Shown here in pieces: positions 26,540 to 60,600 of a stretch of 64,000 nucleotides of DNA. This DNA is from Crambe crambe (taxonomy: Eukaryota; Porifera; Demospongiae; Poecilosclerida; Crambeidae): the NCBI GenBank assembly GCA_963924555.1, contig OZ004582.1, forward strand, positions 4,402,001-4,466,000. The letters run 5' to 3'. Every line of letters starts with the position of its first letter. Position 1 is the first letter of the stretch. The notes beneath the pieces are model-generated. The model ran no database searches and had not been told where the DNA came from. It saw only the letters and a list, made by a program, of their open reading frames with translations. The translations under genes were made by a program, and so were the position numbers.

Positions 26540-29500
26540 TTAACAGCACTCTGATTTACTTTTACTTGATGACATTAACTTATAGTGAGTTAGACAATCC
26601 AGTATCCATGTAGCTGCCACTACTGCCACAACTGAGTCTTTACCTTTGCATAGTTCAATCCATTTTCTCTTCATTGGTGTGTCACCAGCAGTCGGATCAT
26701 ACACAATGAAGATGCTATGCAGGAAATCTCTTCCTGCATGATATGGACAAGTTGGAATATCTAAATGAATGCTTGATGAATTGGGTTCTCTGGATAATAT
26801 GACTCCCCCAGATAATTTCACTAAGAGAAGCAAGTCTTCCTTCGAAGGATTGGGGGGAGAATATTCCCCACAAAAAAAGAATGCACACCCATCAAATAAT
26901 CCTGGAGCCTGTAAGGAGAATATTATGATAAAGAGATGTGCAAACCAGAAACTAGGGTATGCTTGTTTAATATAATATGGGTGAGTGAACAAAGCATTGG
27001 TACCCTAAAAGTTCTTATACAAACAGCAATCTTTAGGTCTGAATTTTTCCCCCCAAGTAATAGGGAAGAATAGTGCCAAGGTGTCGCTATAAAATCTTTA
27101 CTAGTTAAACTGTGGAACCAGATATTACTACAGAGAAGATTTAGTGCATACTATACTAAGCTTTCACTATTATAAATCATCTCTAATAGGAGAGCATATT
27201 CCCTATAATAAGGTGTTTCTTATAGTAGCAGGCAGCATTTTAATCTTGTTCATCATTTAGGGATATACACTATGCATGCATGTTAAACTAAAGTATTGAA
27301 GTGCTAACCCGCACTCTAGGAGTGCTTAGCTAGTTTGCAGATAATTATTGAGCAGATCTCCAGGTATCTACTCAATTGGCATATGCAGAATTTTCCCCCC
27401 TTCATAGGTTTAGTATTTAATATTATAGTGTCTGGTTCCACAATTGATCATTTTTTGGCTAGTATTCTTGTAACAAGTTTCTGTTGGTGGTTACTGGAAG
27501 AGTTTATATATAAACTTACTGACTGGATTGTATACGTATTATATGGTTCCATTTACAATAGGTATGACAAGAGTACCTTTAGTAAAGCGTTTTCTCTCCC
27601 TTTCTTGCATACATCTGTCTGAATCATAGTGCCACCAACCATCACACTAGAGACTTCATAAGGCGTTTCATCAACCCAATCATTCTCTGCTACAGATTGA
27701 GTGATCCCTATCATAAAGTTCTTGAATAAATAAATAAACTTCTAGGGCAATGTGCAGTATTATTTTTTATAGCAAGCAAGTAGAGCAAGCCAGACCTCTT
27801 ACCCACCCACCCACCCGCATATGCGAAGGGGGAAAAGGAGTCTGGTCAAACTGAAAGAAGGTTTTGTTCACATTATGCCATGAAAATTGTGGTGGACATG
27901 TGCAGTATATAGGTCATTGTGCGTTACCATGACATCATTGAGAATTATCTTGATGCGCGCGAGTTTTCTAATCTGCATGCCTAAATCTGTATGTGACCTA
28001 TAATATTCCGCATGTTAAAAATTGTGTACTAGGTGCTGCGTATACGCGCGTGCTCTAAGAAAAATTGCTCTGACTATGCAGAACAACTTCAGACTATTGA
28101 GTTTGCTTAGACCTTTTGGAAGAGACTGTGCTTTAACTCCTTAGGTGAGTAATGTAAGTGGTACTAACCAGAGAGGCTGTAGAAATCAATAAAGCAATTA
28201 TAATTGGAGCATGTGCATTATGAACATGCAGGGTGCTACATAACAGCTGCATAAACAGGAGGCTGTATAATGCTTACTACAAGCACTCAGAAAGTGCCTA
28301 TGATCCACTTAGGCCTCTATGACCATTGTACCCAGGCTCGAAATTATGCAGAGGCGTCCTCTGCTTCTGCAAAAATTTTAGAGCCTGGGGACAAGGCTAC
28401 TATGACATATTATGCTCTAGCTGTTTGGATGAGTCATGACCCGAGCGAGAGTCAGATCACTCACTTCGCTCGCTCGCTGAATTATGATTACTGCATACCT
28501 AACTATTAATATGCATACATTCAAATCTGATAATCCAAAGTCCTTTTGCCACACCACAAAGGAATTTAAAGGTGCGTAAACAGGCTCCATTCTCTCCACA
28601 AGCTGTTATAATATGAGACACTGAAAGGGGAAAAATGGTGCTCAGTACTCATATATATAGCATAGAACTGATTAATCCACCTTCATTGTTAAATGAAGAT
28701 ACAACCTCAGCTTTCAATTCCTTAGCAAGCCTCATTAATGTTTTCTGAGAGGGGGGAAAATCTCTTGACAAGTATACTCATAAATGATATGAATACCTTC
28801 TGAATAAGATCAAGTCCAGTCCCTAACAATACCACTTTACTTTTGGTACCATTCAACTGAGGAGATGCCTATGAACATGTACAGAAATTGATTAACACCA
28901 GTCCTATGATAATTTTCATGAGTAAAAAATGTCAGATCCTATTATTAAAATGAAGAAAACATTATTTAAACTTACCTGCTTAGTTTTTGGTATGACAGAA
29001 TTTCGTTTAAACAAAGAAAAATTTGTGACTGTACGGTTCATTGACTCTGTCTGACACAAATCCTTAGGAGTAAAACCATACTTATTTCTGAAAGCAAACA
29101 AAAAAACAACACAGCTATCATGTGCCCATATCATTTATGAAGCTGTAAGATCACCCACGTTATAAGTAAATTCTGCTTGATATAAACAAACAATGTAACA
29201 GCATGGCCGCTTAAGATCTAGACTAACCTAATATTGATATCTGCTCCCTTTTCTAATAACAAAGTCACTACATCACAGTGTTGATTGGCAACTGCATCAT
29301 GAAGTGGTGTATCATTCTCATATCCTGGAATATTGACTAATGCTCCATAATCGAGCAGGGTAGAAACAACTTTTGAATGTCCGTGATTACAGGCTTCATG
29401 CTATGTATATAGAATGAGCAAAAAAGAAAAAAAAGTAATGCCTACAAGTTCTTTAAATACATAAGTGATTAACATCATACATACAAGAGGAGTCCAACCA

Positions 29501-32500
29501 GCATAATCCTTTACATTAGCATCAGCCCCAGCTTTCAATGCTTCTCTAATGAGCTTTTCATCACCCTATAATGTATATACGGTCAATTATCATACCTTTG
29601 ATAATTACAGCAACTACTCCTAGAACTGTACACGAGTTAAAACAGGTTTTTCAGTAACCCGTTAAAATGACCTTACTTGGTCATTACACTACAATCAAAC
29701 CTTTTTTGCAAGATGATGGAGTGGAGTTTCTCCTTTAGTGTTTCTTCTCTGACTAATTTTCATCTTAGAAGAAATGTGCACAGTTCCGCTTCTTTCCTCA
29801 ATCAGAGATGAAAATATATTCTCTAAAAATTTTGGTATTTAGTATCTAGATAGAATAATTGACAATATACTTGCACTGAATAGCTACATTTCAACTGCTA
29901 TATGGCTATAACACGGTCAACAGCACATGACAAGTATCAATTCACCTTTCTCACTGTTCATCATCTTTTCTTGATATCTTGAACTTGTGACAGGTGGAGC
30001 TTCCGAGTCAGAACTATGGGGTCGATGATCAGAATACCTAAAATTGGATATTCGTTTTTTATGTGCTGAAGTTGTTTGAGAATGTAATAATCGTTTTGAT
30101 GCCCTATTCTTCTTCAGTACAGTGTTGATGCAATTAGCTACGCCTGCTGCTTGCTTTAATTTAAGTTCTACTAAATTTATATCTGTGTTTGCCAAGTCAA
30201 TATTGATTTCAGGATGATCACTGGTCTCTGATGAAGATCTATAACGGGTATTATTCCTTGAAAGAGAATTTAACATTTTCCTAGATATTTCCTGATCACC
30301 AATCATAGTGTTCTCATCTCCCCAGACTTTTTTATTGTTGAATGATTCAAAAGGGATACTAGATGGTGATAGGGTAGGGATATCAGACCTACTAGGTGAC
30401 GAAAGGGTTTCGATATCACAGTTGAATATTGAAGATGGCAATGATATACACTTTCGGTCTCTTTGGAATACTTTGGCTTTCTTCTTTAATTTTAGTGAAG
30501 AATGAAGCTTGAATTGATCAAGTTTGGGTTGTGTGGTTTCTGCCGAAGGATTACTATCTGACCAAGAAGAACCCACAGACAGTTCTGATGTTGAACCAAT
30601 ATAATCGAAGAGCTTGCGACTACTACATAACAGATATCCACAATCAATATCTGATCTAGTTTGGAACGAATTTTGATTATCATTAGAAGATCTAATTGTC
30701 CGCTTTATATCAAGAAGAGCTCTGATCATATTGCTGAGTTGTCTATTTAAATAAACATCCTTGACCCAAGCTGGTACTTTACACTCGGGACATTCTGAAC
30801 CTCCACCACTAAGTGCTAGATGAATGCAATCACTATAAAAGAGAGATGTACAGTAGTTCATAATAGTGATATGTGAGAAAACCCCTTTTAGTCACTAAGT
30901 CTTATAGTACTAATAATCCTACTATGCTATGCATGAAAAACAACAACAAAGCAAACAAAGAACAAAACCAAAAACAACAACAAACAAACAACAATAACAA
31001 AAAACGCACTTGCAAAATGAATGGCCACATGTGCTCAGAGTAAAAGGTTCATGAAGGAGTTGATTGCTATTAAAAATAGAATAAGCTATTATATGTACGT
31101 GTTTAATGATAAAAGCTATTATGCACTAATTATGTTTAATAGAAATAGTACTTTCATGGATGTGAAACTCCTGATTATATAGAATTGATTAAAATGGTCA
31201 TTACAGTGCTTAATAATGGAGGTGTAGCTGCTGTTTGTGCCCTTCCATAGAGATTCGCATCAATCGTGGCTGACTATCGTTTGATAGCCGGTTATGTAAT
31301 CTAGTTTTATTAGTTTCATCTCAATACAGAAAATAGTAGGAGAATTAGCCAACAATGAGTCCTCAAAAAACAATAAAATTTTCTTTTGCACTCCGCGCAG
31401 GAGGGGACACATCCTCTTCCTGCACCCTCCTCCTCACTGTGGCCTAACACTCACATGATTGCCACAGATCCACTTCTCCCCCTCCCCCCAATGAAAAAAT
31501 CCTGTATGAAACCCTGTCTAGTTTGATTGATTAAGCATGCACGTGTATTGCACTGGTGTGCTCGATGGATAGTAACAGCTGCAGTATGGATTTTCAGCAC
31601 TACTTCAAGCCAGCTTCGTCTCTCCCTGACTGGAAGGGGCACCAAGGCTGCTAATAATGTGCCTCTTCTCTATAGCAAACTTTGTTACATCCCATGGCTT
31701 CAGTAGAGGACAGTCCATCACTGAGTAGAACAGCTAGTCCTCACCAGATCAGATTGTGGTTTATGTATAGGTTATTGCATGAAATGGAGGAGTTAGGAAC
31801 CTGAGAGCTGTTGCTAAATTACCAACTTAGACTACAGCTGGCTAAGTGCTATAGCCCTCAGTGCTTAGTGTATAATGGAGACACAATGAGTCATAAATAG
31901 GTGATTTTCACTGTACAGCTTATCAAACAATTCAAGTACAAATCAATGCAAAATATAATCATAATTCATAATAAGATTTGGAACAAGATAATGGATTATG
32001 CAAGGATGAAGTCACGTCACCTAGTCACTGCGCCAGGATTTGACTTCATTCTTGCATAATCTCATCCATTCTCTTGTTCCAATTCTTTCTCGATCAGTTA
32101 ACTAGTCATCCCTACATCACCTTGTGTTTCTTCTTTTAAATTCTCTTTGCAGGAGGTCATTAGTGCTGTATCGATAACCATCTCATTATAACTGCTTGCT
32201 ATGCCACTATTTTGTGATTACTTTTAGCAGGTGGTTAGTGATGTATATCTATAGCTTAAAAAAATTAAGTTGTAGTCTTGTCCTCAGGCCTGAGATGGTA
32301 GTGGGAGAGAGGCAAGGTAACTGTAGCTGAAGTACAAAACATCATCCTTGCTTCATGAAATTCATAGCTCTTGTGTTACAATGTTGGATCACAATAAAGC
32401 CTGGGAAGCAATTTAGTATTCAGTTCTAAATAGATATAGCTGAGCTGCTCAATCAGCCCACTTATTTTTATTTCTAAATAATGTGACCTCAGAAGTAATA

Positions 32501-39134: not shown

Positions 39135-52428
<13,294 letters not shown>

Positions 52429-54621: not shown

Positions 54622-57600
54622 ATGATGGAAGCTGTACAACCAATGAGAGATATAAAAACTCACAGTAGTATGGTGAAAATCATGGCCAAAATACTTAGTG
54701 AAGATGTTGAGGTGGGTTGAGTATTCCATACAGCCAATGGCAGGGTCATTGTACGAAGATTTATAACCTCATTGTAACAGTTGAGTGCGTTTTAGAAATT
54801 GTGACTGGTGCACATTTTTATAAATTCATAATTTGTTCTGCAACGATATTTATACATGAGTGAAGAGTAGCCACATATGCTGTTATGTAGTTGCAAGTAG
54901 CAGGCATGTTCAGTCAATTTTGGGAAGTTGTAAATCACTTACGTGGACATGAAGTGTTTGAGAAGAAAGTCCTAAAATATGCACCAGCAAAACAGTTGGT
55001 AAACAGAAGACTGAAAACATCAAGCAGATCCTCAGAAAAGTACCCCAATAAACTTTAGTTAGAACTAATTTCCATCATTTATTACTGATTATCAGGGTTT
55101 CATACAGTGGAGTGGGAAGGAAACCCCCCTTTGACTGAAATCCCCCCCGAACTTATAAATGAAAATCACTATTGAATGTTTTTGGTTTTAAACATGTCCT
55201 GAAAAGTGGGGTACAGCCACAACTTTGCTTTGAATGTTAGACACTGAGACCAGGTATTTAGAAACCCGAGGGCCCCTGGCAGCCCGAGTGGAGCAAGGGT
55301 GCTACTAGGGGCCCAAGGATTTCTAAATACCGTAGATCCCATTGGTCAGGGTGTCTAAACATAGCCATGGCAACCTACTGTTTCCAAGCAGCGCTCTCTA
55401 TCGTCTACGGAGCTGGCTAGCTAGAGCCAAAGTGATGTTGAAATTTTTCGATGTAAACGTTGACATAACTGACCAGTACCCCAGCTCATCATACCCTACA
55501 TGTCTCTCCAGAAGGAGGAGTTGTCAGAAGTTGTGTCTGTGCCAAAGAATCTTGACTGGCTATTCTCTCATACCACCCACGGTATTTTCTCCTGCAAGCA
55601 ATTCAAACCTTCAACAGGTCAACTCCTGCCAACTATTTATTCCATTGGTTCAAACAAACTATCACAAAGTGTCATTCTTTGTGAGTATGGTACGTTTATT
55701 GAACTCTGTACCAGCTCCCTATCTTCAAATATTCAAATAGTGCATTTAAAATAGCTATCAAAAAGTTTTTATAGTGTAAAATTGTTGTTATTTTTTGTTT
55801 TGTTTTGTTTTTGTTGTTTCGTTTTGGTTGTTGTTTCTTTTTGTTGTTGTTTTTCCTCATTGTTCCTTCATTATTTTTGTATCTTTTGTGTAGTAACATT
55901 AGCTTATGCTAGTTGATGGTCCTGGTGTTGTACACCAAATTGTATACAAAAAAATGTCTTGGAGAACCGTGATGCAGTGCATGGGGGATATGGAAACTAG
56001 CTTAAAGAAAAGGACTTTGAAGACGTCATCTCCAAAATGCTCGCTTCAGCAGTCACACCACCAAGTTCCAGAACCCAGCTCCTCCCCCCTAAGTCTAGCA
56101 TGCTGCATTTAAAAGTGATAGTGAAGTTGAAGAAGCTAGGTCTAGTGGTATTCCAGAAAAAAAACGAAGCAGGACACACCAATCCTTGTCAGATAGTATT
56201 AATTGAGGAGGATGATAGACCCTATCTGAAATATACAGATGTATTGAAGAACAGACCAGGAGGGATTAATAACTCTATAGAGGCTGTAGATGCCAATTGG
56301 CGTCAGGCATCTCTGACACATTTCTCAAATTCAGAAATGTTAGGTGATTTGATAGTCCAACTGCATCGACAGCCAGTTTGTTTTTCTTTTTTGTCATGGT
56401 CCCTGTCCATGGTGGTATCAGTGACAGGAGGCCTCTTCCTGTGCAGGGGGGGGGGGGCTGGCCTGTCAGTTGAGGTGCGATATTTACAGCTGCGTTTAGA
56501 TCCATGTAGACAAACTGCTTTGATTGGTCTTTAGGATGTCTGCAGTTTGTGCTATAGAGTCTGGAGTATGACCTCTGTCCATCTCTCTTGTTGTAGCTAG
56601 ATAGTTTCCCCATGCAAAGATTACATGTCTGATGTTTTATATTCATCCACTATCTTCCCTCTGAACCTGCTTGACATAGCTTTCTGATGCCCACTGTGGG
56701 CAACGGCTGGCACCTTTTCATCTGATCGAGTCAGGACCAGTCCCCATACAGGATGATGCAGTCGGGGGCGTATGTCGAGGCCACCCTGTCAAGGAATTGA
56801 GCCTCGCTGCTCTTGCAATTGCAGAACAGCCTGAATCTCCATCTCCACTTTTGTTGCCTGTAAAAGGCATTGGCCTTGTAGTCGAACATCCTCTTCTCTT
56901 CTAGGTAGTGCAGGAACTCTTCCAGGTCATTCGTCCTGCAGGAAAATTTGGAGAGTCTGGTCTTGAGCACCTTGACCATGACAGACTTCTTCTTCCTGTT
57001 CAGCATGTTCCTGTTTCTATCCTGCCCACCATGTCTATTCTGTCCAGAAAGAGTTTAGAGAAAGTTTGGGACCAAAATTCCCCCATCCTCAATGCCAGTT
57101 CCCCTTTTTTCCCTTCTTTCCACTTGGGGATTTCATGGAGACTTGGTTCAAGCATGCCAGTATAGTGGCATGGTTGACAGGTGGTACTTCTTTAGTACAT
57201 AGACGATATGCCTTGAAAAAGAATAGGCCAAGTTTGGTGAGTTCATGCACTTTGAGAACCTCTTGCTCTATCTTTTCCCGTCTGGAACCACACTGGATAG
57301 CCTGCACTTTACAGAGAAGAACTCCAATTTACGACTGCAGTGCATTAGACTGCTTCAATGCTTTTATGCAGAGTGGTAATGATAATATCACTTGGAACCA
57401 ACCTTTTCTTGTACTTCACCATGTTCCAAAGATGAATGAAATCTTTGCACTGGACCAAAAAAAAAAAAAAAACCAGTAAAAGCAACTGTCTTCTGCAGCA
57501 GTGAATACAATTGTCACTAAGTGGTTTCCAGATATGTGCACGCATGTCAAAACCAAATCTTTGGTATTCTTCCAGAGCACTTGGGCATAATATGCTTAGT

Positions 57601-60600
57601 AAGACAGTTGCAAGACTATGTACAGGAGCTGGAATTGAAGGGTTTAAGAGAAAACACTCATTGAGAGTGTTTTCTTTATGTCAACCAAAGTGGAGTTAAT
57701 TAGCAATTAGTGATGGAAAGGACAGGCTATAGAAGTCTGGAGGGAGTAAGAAGTTATGAACATACATCACAAGTGTGCCCTGCAACTGACCAGTCAGATT
57801 GCTCTATTTAGCAGAGCTATGTTCTAAGTGTACATGACAGCATGACAGTAATTAAAGTGGGTGGTTAGCCCCCAAAATGATTTTTTACAAGCGCGCTCAT
57901 AGTCCCAAAAATTATTTAAAATTAGTATAATCTCTGGATGGATTTTTTTAAGTTATACAGTTTTTTTGGCCTTTGTTGCAGCATTTTAGTATTGAGGCCA
58001 TGTGTTAGATTGGTAGGCTGCTATTCATGTTGTAGAAAAAATTGCCTAATTTTCTATGTGAGTTATATATCATTCATACAATACTCATAAATTATCCGCT
58101 TTAAATCTAAATTGGATAGTTACGCAATTTATAAAATTAATAGCCTCACAAATTATGTAATAGTTATAGTACGGTGCCGAGGAAATTATGGCTGTGAACA
58201 GTCCGAGGGCTGTGACCATACTATAACTATTATATGTTCCACCTGATTGGCTGACTAGGCTCCGCCTTTAGGCTACCGCAATTTCCCTACGGCAATTTCT
58301 GTCTCGGTATGTATACTGCTGTTAATACTGACCAGTCCCTCCCTCACTTCAACTTTGTCAGTGAGGAAGAACTTTCTAAACTTAGAGATGGTTTGTACCC
58401 TCTAGTGGAACTTAAAAATTTTAGTTCATGGAAAGATTGTAGAAATAGCAGCTTTCCTCTGGAGGACCAAGTGTCTGATGATATTTTGCAGTGCACTGAT
58501 GCACAAGTATATACTATCTGAGACCTTTTCTTATTATCAAGACCAGAAAATATAATGGTGAACAGTATCCGAGCAACTTTGCACGGTCTTTTTTGTAGCC
58601 TATTATAACAAGTGAAGAAACTTTCAAAACATACTTATTATTGTATCTCATGATTTCTTTACTCTAAGAAGGACTTAACTTTATAGCTAGTCCTATCCCC
58701 TGGGGGAGGACTTTATGCCAGTTAAAGTACTACTGGTGGCTGGGTGGAATATATGAATGCACAGTGCAATTTACAGATTATCACCATTTCTAAATGGATT
58801 AAAATGGGTGTATGTGAAGCCTTGTCAAATCATGCTATTGTGTATCTTACTGGTATAATTTGTATTTTGGCTTAGTCAGATGGGATCTTAGCATTATCTA
58901 GAAGAACATATGACAAACTTGAAGTACCTGAAGATGTGAAACAGCAACAATTCAGAGACGACTTGAATGAACAAGGTTTATAAGATTTTCACTAAAATGC
59001 TTACTTAAAATCGATAGTCAAGTGCTCATCCTGTGTGATACTTGCAATTTTGTTTAACCCATGCTTATGGCTTTTATATATAGAAACCAAATAATGCATG
59101 AGCTCAGGACTTGGAGCCTGGGTATAGGAGTCAGTTCTGAATCCTGTTACAGCTTGCATATACCCGGGGTTCTGATTTTCTTTCCAATATTTTGGTTTGT
59201 TATGTCTATGTGGGAAGTAGCCACATTCTTTGCAAGCTGTCATGATTTCCATTAGTTTTGTGGCTATCCTCTAATAAGCATACCATCCCAATATATCTGT
59301 ATCTGACATGCATTACATCATTATGGTCAGCATTTGCAAGTGCAATGAGCTTGGCAGGTGATAAAGACGTAATAAGTTCTGTAATTGATGAATGAGAGGT
59401 TCCAAAATCAAAATCACTGAAATGCTAACCCTCAGCATGTGTATAAGGTAGCAGCGTCTGAGTGGCCACACAGTGCCTGCATGTGAATAGCTATCCATTA
59501 TTAGCAGAACTATCAAGACAGTCTGGACAGAGTGAATTGTTTATAGAAGCTGCCTCCTTTCCTTTCTGGAATAAAGCCTTTTAAATTGAAGTTTTGAAGT
59601 ATTCTAATCACTACTGGCTACAGAGTCATGCACATACAGACAGATGCACACTGAGACCAATAAGTTGAGATCAGCTATGGTGCCACCTGAAGCAATGCTT
59701 CTTTGTTCATGGATGGATGAAGGAGATTGGGATTATAATCTGCACGGGTTACTATGAGTAGGGAACGGATCACTACTCTCAGTCACACATATGAAGTAGG
59801 ACTGGGAACAGTGATTTAACTAGCACATTAATTAGTATGGTACTATTTATTTTTTGAATAGATTTTTTATCAGGGGAGGAGATGAGTGACAATGATGGTG
59901 ATGATGAGATGATCAACAAACCGGAGGAGGCAGCAAGTAGAGATGTTGTGAAGGAGTGTCATATCCTTCCTCAAGAGAGATACACAGAGAAAGAGAAAGA
60001 ACTACAAAGAATAGCCACTAATGGAGGTTAGATACTTAGGATATATAGCAGGGTTAGCAGACAGGAATACTAGCCTTGTACCCAGGCTCTGAAATTTTGT
60101 GGAGGTGGACAAAAGAGTCTGGTACCCACTATTGCACATGCCAAAATCCCCCATGATTCGGATTTGGTGGATTTGTAATCTCTGCATGACACCATACTGC
60201 TGAATTAGCACTGCAGCAAACAGCTCGGTCTAGTTCATTTGTTCTTCTTTGCAGACATATCCCATCTCAGTTGGGACAACCCCACCATTCATTAATTTAA
60301 CTGAATTTCTTTCCTGTTCAATCAGAAGTATGGCCTTGTTGGTACCAATAGTTATCTTCACTCATTGCTTTGATGGTGGACCAGGCTAGGGAATGGTGGA
60401 GCCTGAGGCTGTGATCATCTCCTCTGGCTTAAGGGAGAGCGGCTTATGGATAAACTCTTTCCACTATGATATCTGTGATGTCACAACCATCATTAAGTGT
60501 AATAGGTGGGAATTTTGTGTGAGAATTTTGGCACATGCGTGAACTATGGGCACCAGGCTCTATTTCTCTCCTCCATAAATTTTTAGAGTCTGGGGACGAG

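Follow-up and report, generated by a model that had tools for sequence, protein, structure and literature searches.

The 64-kb window analysed here (the whole stretch of 64,000 nucleotides, on contig C3 of the Crambe crambe assembly) carries on its minus strand, at 57322-56266, a dead Fanzor1 gene, the remains of an RNA-guided nuclease. Its parts are given below with their tblastn matches to metagenome relatives (P0005, P0006) and to an uninterrupted sponge frame at locus L023.

57131..57322, minus strand: N-terminal piece of the decayed Fanzor1 (L023 frame residues 20-84, 35%; P0005 residues 16-78, 49%; tblastn)
57021..57110, minus strand: second N-terminal piece, in another frame, ending at an internal deletion (P0005 residues 85-114, 50%; tblastn)
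56731..57024, minus strand: central C-terminal piece, YKANAFYRQQKWRWRF ... YGDWS, up to the in-frame TGA at 56733-56731 (open frame 56731-57054; tblastn with P0006 and L023)
56624..56650, minus strand: VDEYKTS segment with the RuvC-II Glu, in a different frame (sequence and frames)
56479..56649, minus strand: zinc-ribbon remnant with CNLC, one Cys of the second pair being Ser (open frame 56275-56649; alignment columns)
56502-56479, minus strand: RuvC-III DLNAAVNI (open frame 56275-56649)
56270..56358, minus strand: decayed guide-RNA-like right end with core GGACTATCAAATCACC (3 mismatches), two hairpins and the inverted repeat
56270..56305, minus strand: element right end (86% match to the L029 right end across 36 nt)
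56266..56269, minus strand: TTAA adjoining the right end, a probable target-site copy (sequence)

An earlier note on this DNA had called the feature a decayed Fanzor, and all the motif strings it quoted lie on the minus strand where it had placed them. The identification is borne out, within the Fanzor1 group, by a match to the metagenome protein P0006 at 57018-56335 (tblastn in the 64-kb window, 42% identity over 245 aa, E = 1.2e-45) and by a match to the intact frame of L023 on contig C19 (tblastn, 40% over 198 aa, E = 1.1e-34). Additional N-terminal pieces were detected with metagenome proteins at 57322-57155 and 57110-57024, in two other frames (tblastn). An unrelated zinc-ribbon protein could be argued for from the failure of Pfam's own models to recognize any of the three decayed window pieces when these are scanned alone; against it stand the P0006 match and the ~40% identity to a frame that matches solved Fanzor1 structures. 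We reject this alternative, whose probability we regard as negligible.

The note had ascribed the death of the gene to stops and frameshifts. A TGA stop at 56733-56731, directly after YGDWS, and the position of VDEYKTS in a different frame from the CNLC...DLNAAVNI piece, which implies at least two frameshifts flanking VDEYKTS, agree with this, but the damage is greater than the note allowed. The copy is without ~260 residues (~122-381 in C19 numbering), including the RuvC-I DPG motif with its Asp; by tblastn, this region is deleted and not just frameshifted. The piece that follows the deletion starts at residue 356 of P0005 and residue 391 of P0006. The zinc ribbon retains the CNLC half quoted in the note, but Cys 541 has become Ser, which leaves three of the four zinc cysteines. 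The RuvC-II Glu segment and the RuvC-III Asp also persist, and the RuvC-III Arg is lost.

The limits of the feature need revision as well: the motifs lie within 56440..57455, as the note had it, but the right end of the element, at ~56305-56266, extends beyond the end given there. Across 36 nt it matches the L029 right end at 86% identity (pairwise comparison, E = 5e-7). No left end was identified for the window copy; the best candidate, at 57646, was equaled by 106 to 364 of 500 shuffles, depending on which of four end patterns was used, and was rejected as no better than shuffles. A location within an intron, also claimed in the note, is not established, as six open frames within ~3 kb gave no Pfam family. 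Elsewhere in the window, open frames that encode a BARD1-type RING and a BRCT domain (26540-30891, minus strand) probably represent a sponge BARD1 gene, and two long open frames of 352 and 432 aa with no match in Pfam (47596-50022, plus strand) are perhaps one transposon or gene. The window copy itself is an ordinary fossil, and the interest lies in its family, which has guide-RNA-like ends and repeat-flanked scars.

The note's guess that the genome holds better-preserved relatives proved right. In the whole genome (143.14 Mb, 119 contigs), a 107-aa piece from the window matches 14 places including itself, and thus 13 others (best E = 4e-20, all 18 candidates scored); the Pfam family PF07282 was found at six places (all 10 candidates scored). 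The relative at L023 on C19 is an uninterrupted frame of 654 codons, with a Met at residue 10, that carries all catalytic residues: DPG, DEFRTS, four cysteines and DRDRNAAAN, that is, a RuvC-I Asp in the DPG motif that is invariant in this frame and nine relatives, the RuvC-II Glu, a C4 zinc ribbon and the RuvC-III RD. A profile built from the C19 frame and nine metagenome relatives retrieved three PDB sequences at E ≤ 1e-3, all of them Fanzor1: SpuFz1 (E = 8.4e-63), PpFz1 (E = 3e-50) and GtFz1 (E = 4.1e-49). The match extends along most of the Fanzor1 proteins of Spizellomyces punctatus (SpuFz1) and Guillardia theta (GtFz1), with which the C19 frame shares the DPG, E[FY]xTS, zinc-ribbon and RD motifs. 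Unlike these proteins, the sponge family has a sponge host and a carrier with TTAA/CCCT ends, and the window copy is dead. Metagenome relatives P0001-P0014 are 41-54% identical to the sponge protein, and P0001-P0015 carry the precomputed Pfam label PF26935. Viral contigs yielded 33 pattern matches, none of which was confirmed as a relative.

The young copies are 2.2-kb elements that are flanked by TTAA duplications, have piggyBac-like CCCT... inverted ends and contain no transposase. Four of them (L023, L024, L026 and L027) share ~96-97% DNA identity over their main part, with 90% in one segment of L027, and their similarity has sharp limits. In L023 and L024 the ends are TTAACCCTAGAACTAC on the left and GTAGTTTAAGGGTTAA on the right, and the short inverted ends begin with CCC (CCCTAGAACTAC / GTAGTTTAAGGG). 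L023 shows the TTAA duplication only. The right flanks of L023 and L024 both continue with AAGAGA, as seen by eye. A 14-mer from the right end occurs 20 times in the genome, versus 2 for its reversed pattern; the older lineages L025, L031, L033 and L034 share this right end, differing by one mismatch at most, and L032, L029 and the window copy have a related one. L029 also has a matching left end, equaled by 0 of 500 shuffles with the L032-type pattern and by 8 of 500 with its own. The base 5′ of TTAA is A or T at 12 of 14 sites versus a background of 66%, which is not striking.

Canonical piggyBac ends are of the CCC type. The sponge elements resemble the piggyBac superfamily in their TTAA duplication and CCCT inverted ends and differ from it in having no transposase inside: by coordinates, none of 62 matches to the piggyBac domain (PF13843) lies in a Fanzor element. 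A partner transposase with the same ends (TTAACCCT) was not found, and the one transposase 3′ flank inspected (L073, 576 nt) has no GGGTTAA end. We infer that a piggyBac-like transposase probably mobilized the Fanzor1 elements in trans.

The last 76-96 nt of the elements start with the core GGACNATCNAGTGACCC, present with 0-4 mismatches in 19 right ends, and finish in GGGTTAA. At L023 the final codons of the frame, which encode SSDP, overlap with the core; a passage of Saito et al. (PMC10432273) likewise describes omega-RNA that can overlap the Fanzor gene. In 10 of the 13 right ends folded alone, a closing stem is predicted that encloses two inner hairpins and pairs UGACCC of the core with GGGUUA, which comes from the inverted repeat and TTAA; it did not form in L028, L029 and the window copy, and in L031 it formed in a short stretch and gave way to another fold in a longer one. 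Passages of Yoon et al. (PMC10711439) describe a Fanzor1 reRNA scaffold that is predicted to include the TIR and TSD. According to a passage of PMC10432273, the TAM of GtFz1 is TTAAN, like the TTAA of the sponge elements; a passage of a later paper, in one sentence of which two names are swapped, gives it as TTAA.

The support for the fold differs among lineages. Folding-energy z-scores are about -2 for L023 and L034 and weak for L025 (-0.70) and L031 (-1.41), and lineages differ in the sequences that make up hairpin I. For 15 copies, RNAalifold predicted 16 pairs; both partners have changed in six of them, and the covariation term is small. The full topology was obtained for six of nine sequences (four of the six being closely related) and partly for L032, and L029 and the window copy were without it. 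Because the same topology arises in 33-100 of 500 shuffles of the interior per sequence, the fold of one lineage alone proves little. A covariance model placed its best match in the window at the right position with E = 0.52; as a nearly equal match (0.6) lies elsewhere, this result is supportive only. The model matched four of 13 other loci at E ≤ 1, and no Rfam family reached its gathering threshold in the window. With these predictions, the conserved right ends of the relatives look like guide RNAs in most lineages, much as the earlier note had guessed in supposing that conserved 3′ flanks could specify one, and by analogy with known Fanzors the DNA that flanks the element beyond TTAA would serve as guide.

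The sequences next to the right ends carry a further signal. At nine of 21 right-end loci (L024, L026, L035, L049, L065, L066, L068, L069 and L070), the bases that immediately follow the right end are found again upstream of the insert, as a duplication of 11-19 nt with at most one mismatch. Eleven loci had been chosen by eye on the resemblance of their right ends, before the flanks were seen, and one place was added for its exact core; the choice was made by eye because an end search allowing up to two mismatches gave fewer places than its reversed control (96 versus 236). The 21-locus test left out L025, L028, L031, L033 and L034 (5′ end undefined), L029, L030 and L032 (older lineages) and L060 (left end only). 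Mismatched pairings of loci reached 11 nt in 11 of 420 cases, and no permutation out of 100,000 reached the observed sum (0 of 20,000 in an earlier test with 16 loci). All nine duplications begin within 4 nt of the right-end GGG, and eight start at TTAA. Manual reading gave a duplication of TTAA plus 9 nt in L026, L035 and L068 and of TTAA plus 10 nt in L024, L065, L066 and L069; in L049 it is TTAA plus 12-13 nt, in an inverted arrangement whose reading was chosen after L049 had been seen, and in L070 the 11 nt after TTAA are duplicated and TTAA itself is not. An exact 9-nt duplication in L063, TTAATGTAA, falls below this class. The long duplication is absent from the other 12 loci (L023, L027, L036, L037, L043, L061-L064, L067, L071 and L072), and none was found in the whole upstream stretch of L025, L031, L033 and L034 (best 7.5 points).

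The duplicated sequences flank inserts that are mostly 5′-truncated, the shortest being ~16 nt (L066) and the longest a whole element (L024). Exact 20-mers from right ends outnumber those from left ends 11 to 3 in the genome, although left ends may be more divergent in other lineages. In L035 and L024, filler separates the duplication from the element; in L063, L068 and L069, GGG and TTAA are separated by 3-4 extra bases; and L026, L027 and L035 begin at the same GGACCC. L024, which lies in locally repeated sequence, carries its own left flank twice, the additional copy lying outside the left end. In the truncated copy of L049 (1480-1900), the right end and its flank are inverted with respect to the 5′ part, and both share TTAAGGTACTATGCATG. 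A right-end fragment at L072 (120-200) ends at GGG without TTAA, beside a long palindrome. Duplications of 11-19 nt, mostly TTAA plus 9-10 nt, that flank mostly 5′-truncated right-end copies are a new observation.

The duplications could have no link to Fanzor, having arisen by abortive gap repair after piggyBac-type excision, by later tandem duplication or by chance. The 12 loci without a duplication and the repeated surroundings of L024 would fit such an origin, which we nevertheless consider improbable given the permutation and mismatched-pairing results and the position of the breaks. piggyBac-type insertion and excision act at TTAA alone, and only TTAA is duplicated; excision breaks the DNA at TTAA and not ~10 nt past it. 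For ~10 more bases to be duplicated, an empty site that is still intact has to be broken beyond TTAA.

We propose that such breaks were made by the nuclease itself. In working copies, the 3′ end of the transcript would fold into a guide-RNA scaffold that includes the right inverted repeat and TTAA, with TTAA serving as the TAM and the host DNA that flanks the element as the guide. Once the element had been excised, or where an allele had none, the nuclease would cleave the empty site at least ~10 nt beyond TTAA. The broken end distal to the TAM would then restore the element by copying it from the sister or homologue. This end would match the right flank of the donor to its tip and copy leftwards into the right end, and the TAM-side end would finish in bases that the donor has elsewhere; because the TAM-distal end alone matches the donor to the tip, scars with right ends only are predicted, and the 11-to-3 excess of right-end 20-mers fits this. 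Copying that failed and was joined to the TAM-side end would leave TTAA plus ~10 nt, a truncated right end, and again TTAA plus ~10 nt. The outer copy of the left flank at L024 is what copying through the element from a same-locus donor would leave, unless the target was already repeated. Against homing, 12 of the 21 loci lack a long duplication, and the extra bases in L063, L068 and L069 are not predicted by simple copying. On balance we lean toward this account, in which the window copy is a dead, internally deleted Fanzor1 from a transposase-less TTAA/CCCT family with a predicted guide-RNA 3′ end, RNA-guided homing and scars from failed copying. Of this account, the protein family, the element ends, the duplications and the predicted fold of most lineages are shown here, and RNA-guided cutting, homing and the transposase partner are inferences.

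The break positions bear on the proposed cut. Passages of PMC10432273 report Fanzor cuts at 16-21 for SpuFz1, at 14-17 on one strand for GtFz1 and at 19 for NlovFz2, and cuts of the target strand at +9 to +14 for MmeFz2. The left breaks of the sponge scars, at +9 to +13, are nearer to TTAA than most of these. Since reported cuts fall mostly at +14 to +21, with the MmeFz2 target strand at +9 to +14, some trimming of ends may be needed.

A serious rival to homing is RNA-templated insertion, in which the Fanzor transcript or its 3′ guide RNA would have been reverse-transcribed at a nicked TTAA (target-primed), either by a host LINE enzyme or with the help of Fanzor's own cut, to yield 5′ truncation and duplications of 13-14 nt. 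The order of duplication, 5′-truncated insert, precise 3′ end and duplication is what such insertion would produce, and the extra TTAA-like bases at three right junctions fit it too, as does the GGACCC start shared by L026, L027 and L035 if these came from one transcript start; alternatively, the left-end hairpin may have produced this shared start. However, no poly(A) or other tail was seen at the right ends, eight of nine duplications start at TTAA, and the flank copy outside the left end of L024 would not be expected if the transcript began within the element. We judge RNA-templated insertion to be less likely than homing.

A similar pattern has been described in an alga. Passages of Bao and Jurka (2013, PMC3627910) report three Fanzor1 Helitron families of Chlamydomonas (CRe-1, -2 and -3) with 5′ truncation, intact 3′ ends, TSDs of ~7-19 nt or longer that immediately follow TTTT, and sequence captured past the 5′ end; in a Fanzor-less Helitron, one of 200 copies had a TSD. 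In the same passages the authors called the pattern one-ended transposition and could not tell if Fanzor had caused it. The CRe copies, as these passages present them, resemble the sponge copies in the truncation, the intact 3′ ends, the short duplications beside a target tetranucleotide and the captured 5′ sequence, and they differ in the Helitron carrier, in the position of TTTT outside the duplication and in the variable length of the latter. The geometry is alike in sponge and Chlamydomonas despite unrelated host and carrier.

TnpB in IS200/605 was reportedly proposed by Meers et al. in 2023 (cited in a passage of PMC11870625) to cut the emptied site, after which the element is restored by repair. 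The sponge case shares this logic of cutting and restoring and differs in that the TnpB system is bacterial, that homing in the sponge is read from scars only, and that TTAA lies inside the predicted scaffold. In the Fanzor and TnpB papers covered, mostly as passages, we found no homing-scar reading of the sponge-type or the Chlamydomonas pattern, and the passages gave no report of a Fanzor on a sponge or TTAA/piggyBac-type carrier.

We conjecture, with confidence and doubt in equal measure, that the scars are fossils of homing: a Fanzor1 carried by a TTAA-type, piggyBac-like element would have repeatedly cut emptied sites ~10 nt past the TAM and left scars from 16 nt to full length, homing would also account for the "one-ended" copies of Chlamydomonas, and it would be a general natural function of eukaryotic Fanzors. 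A passage of Yoon et al. (PMC10711439) treats the natural role of Fanzor nucleases as an open question. If the scars are genuine, they are a record of cut place, TAM and break repair in the germ line, and the question of function becomes answerable by comparing haplotypes and genomes; if the conjecture is true, homing can be read from genome sequence alone. The family adds a sponge host and a TTAA-type carrier to the Fanzor record.

The uninterrupted copy of L023 lies within a local tandem repeat array on C19 (L023 1-592 and 8052-8640; L057, L058 and L039), other units of which may include empty sites.
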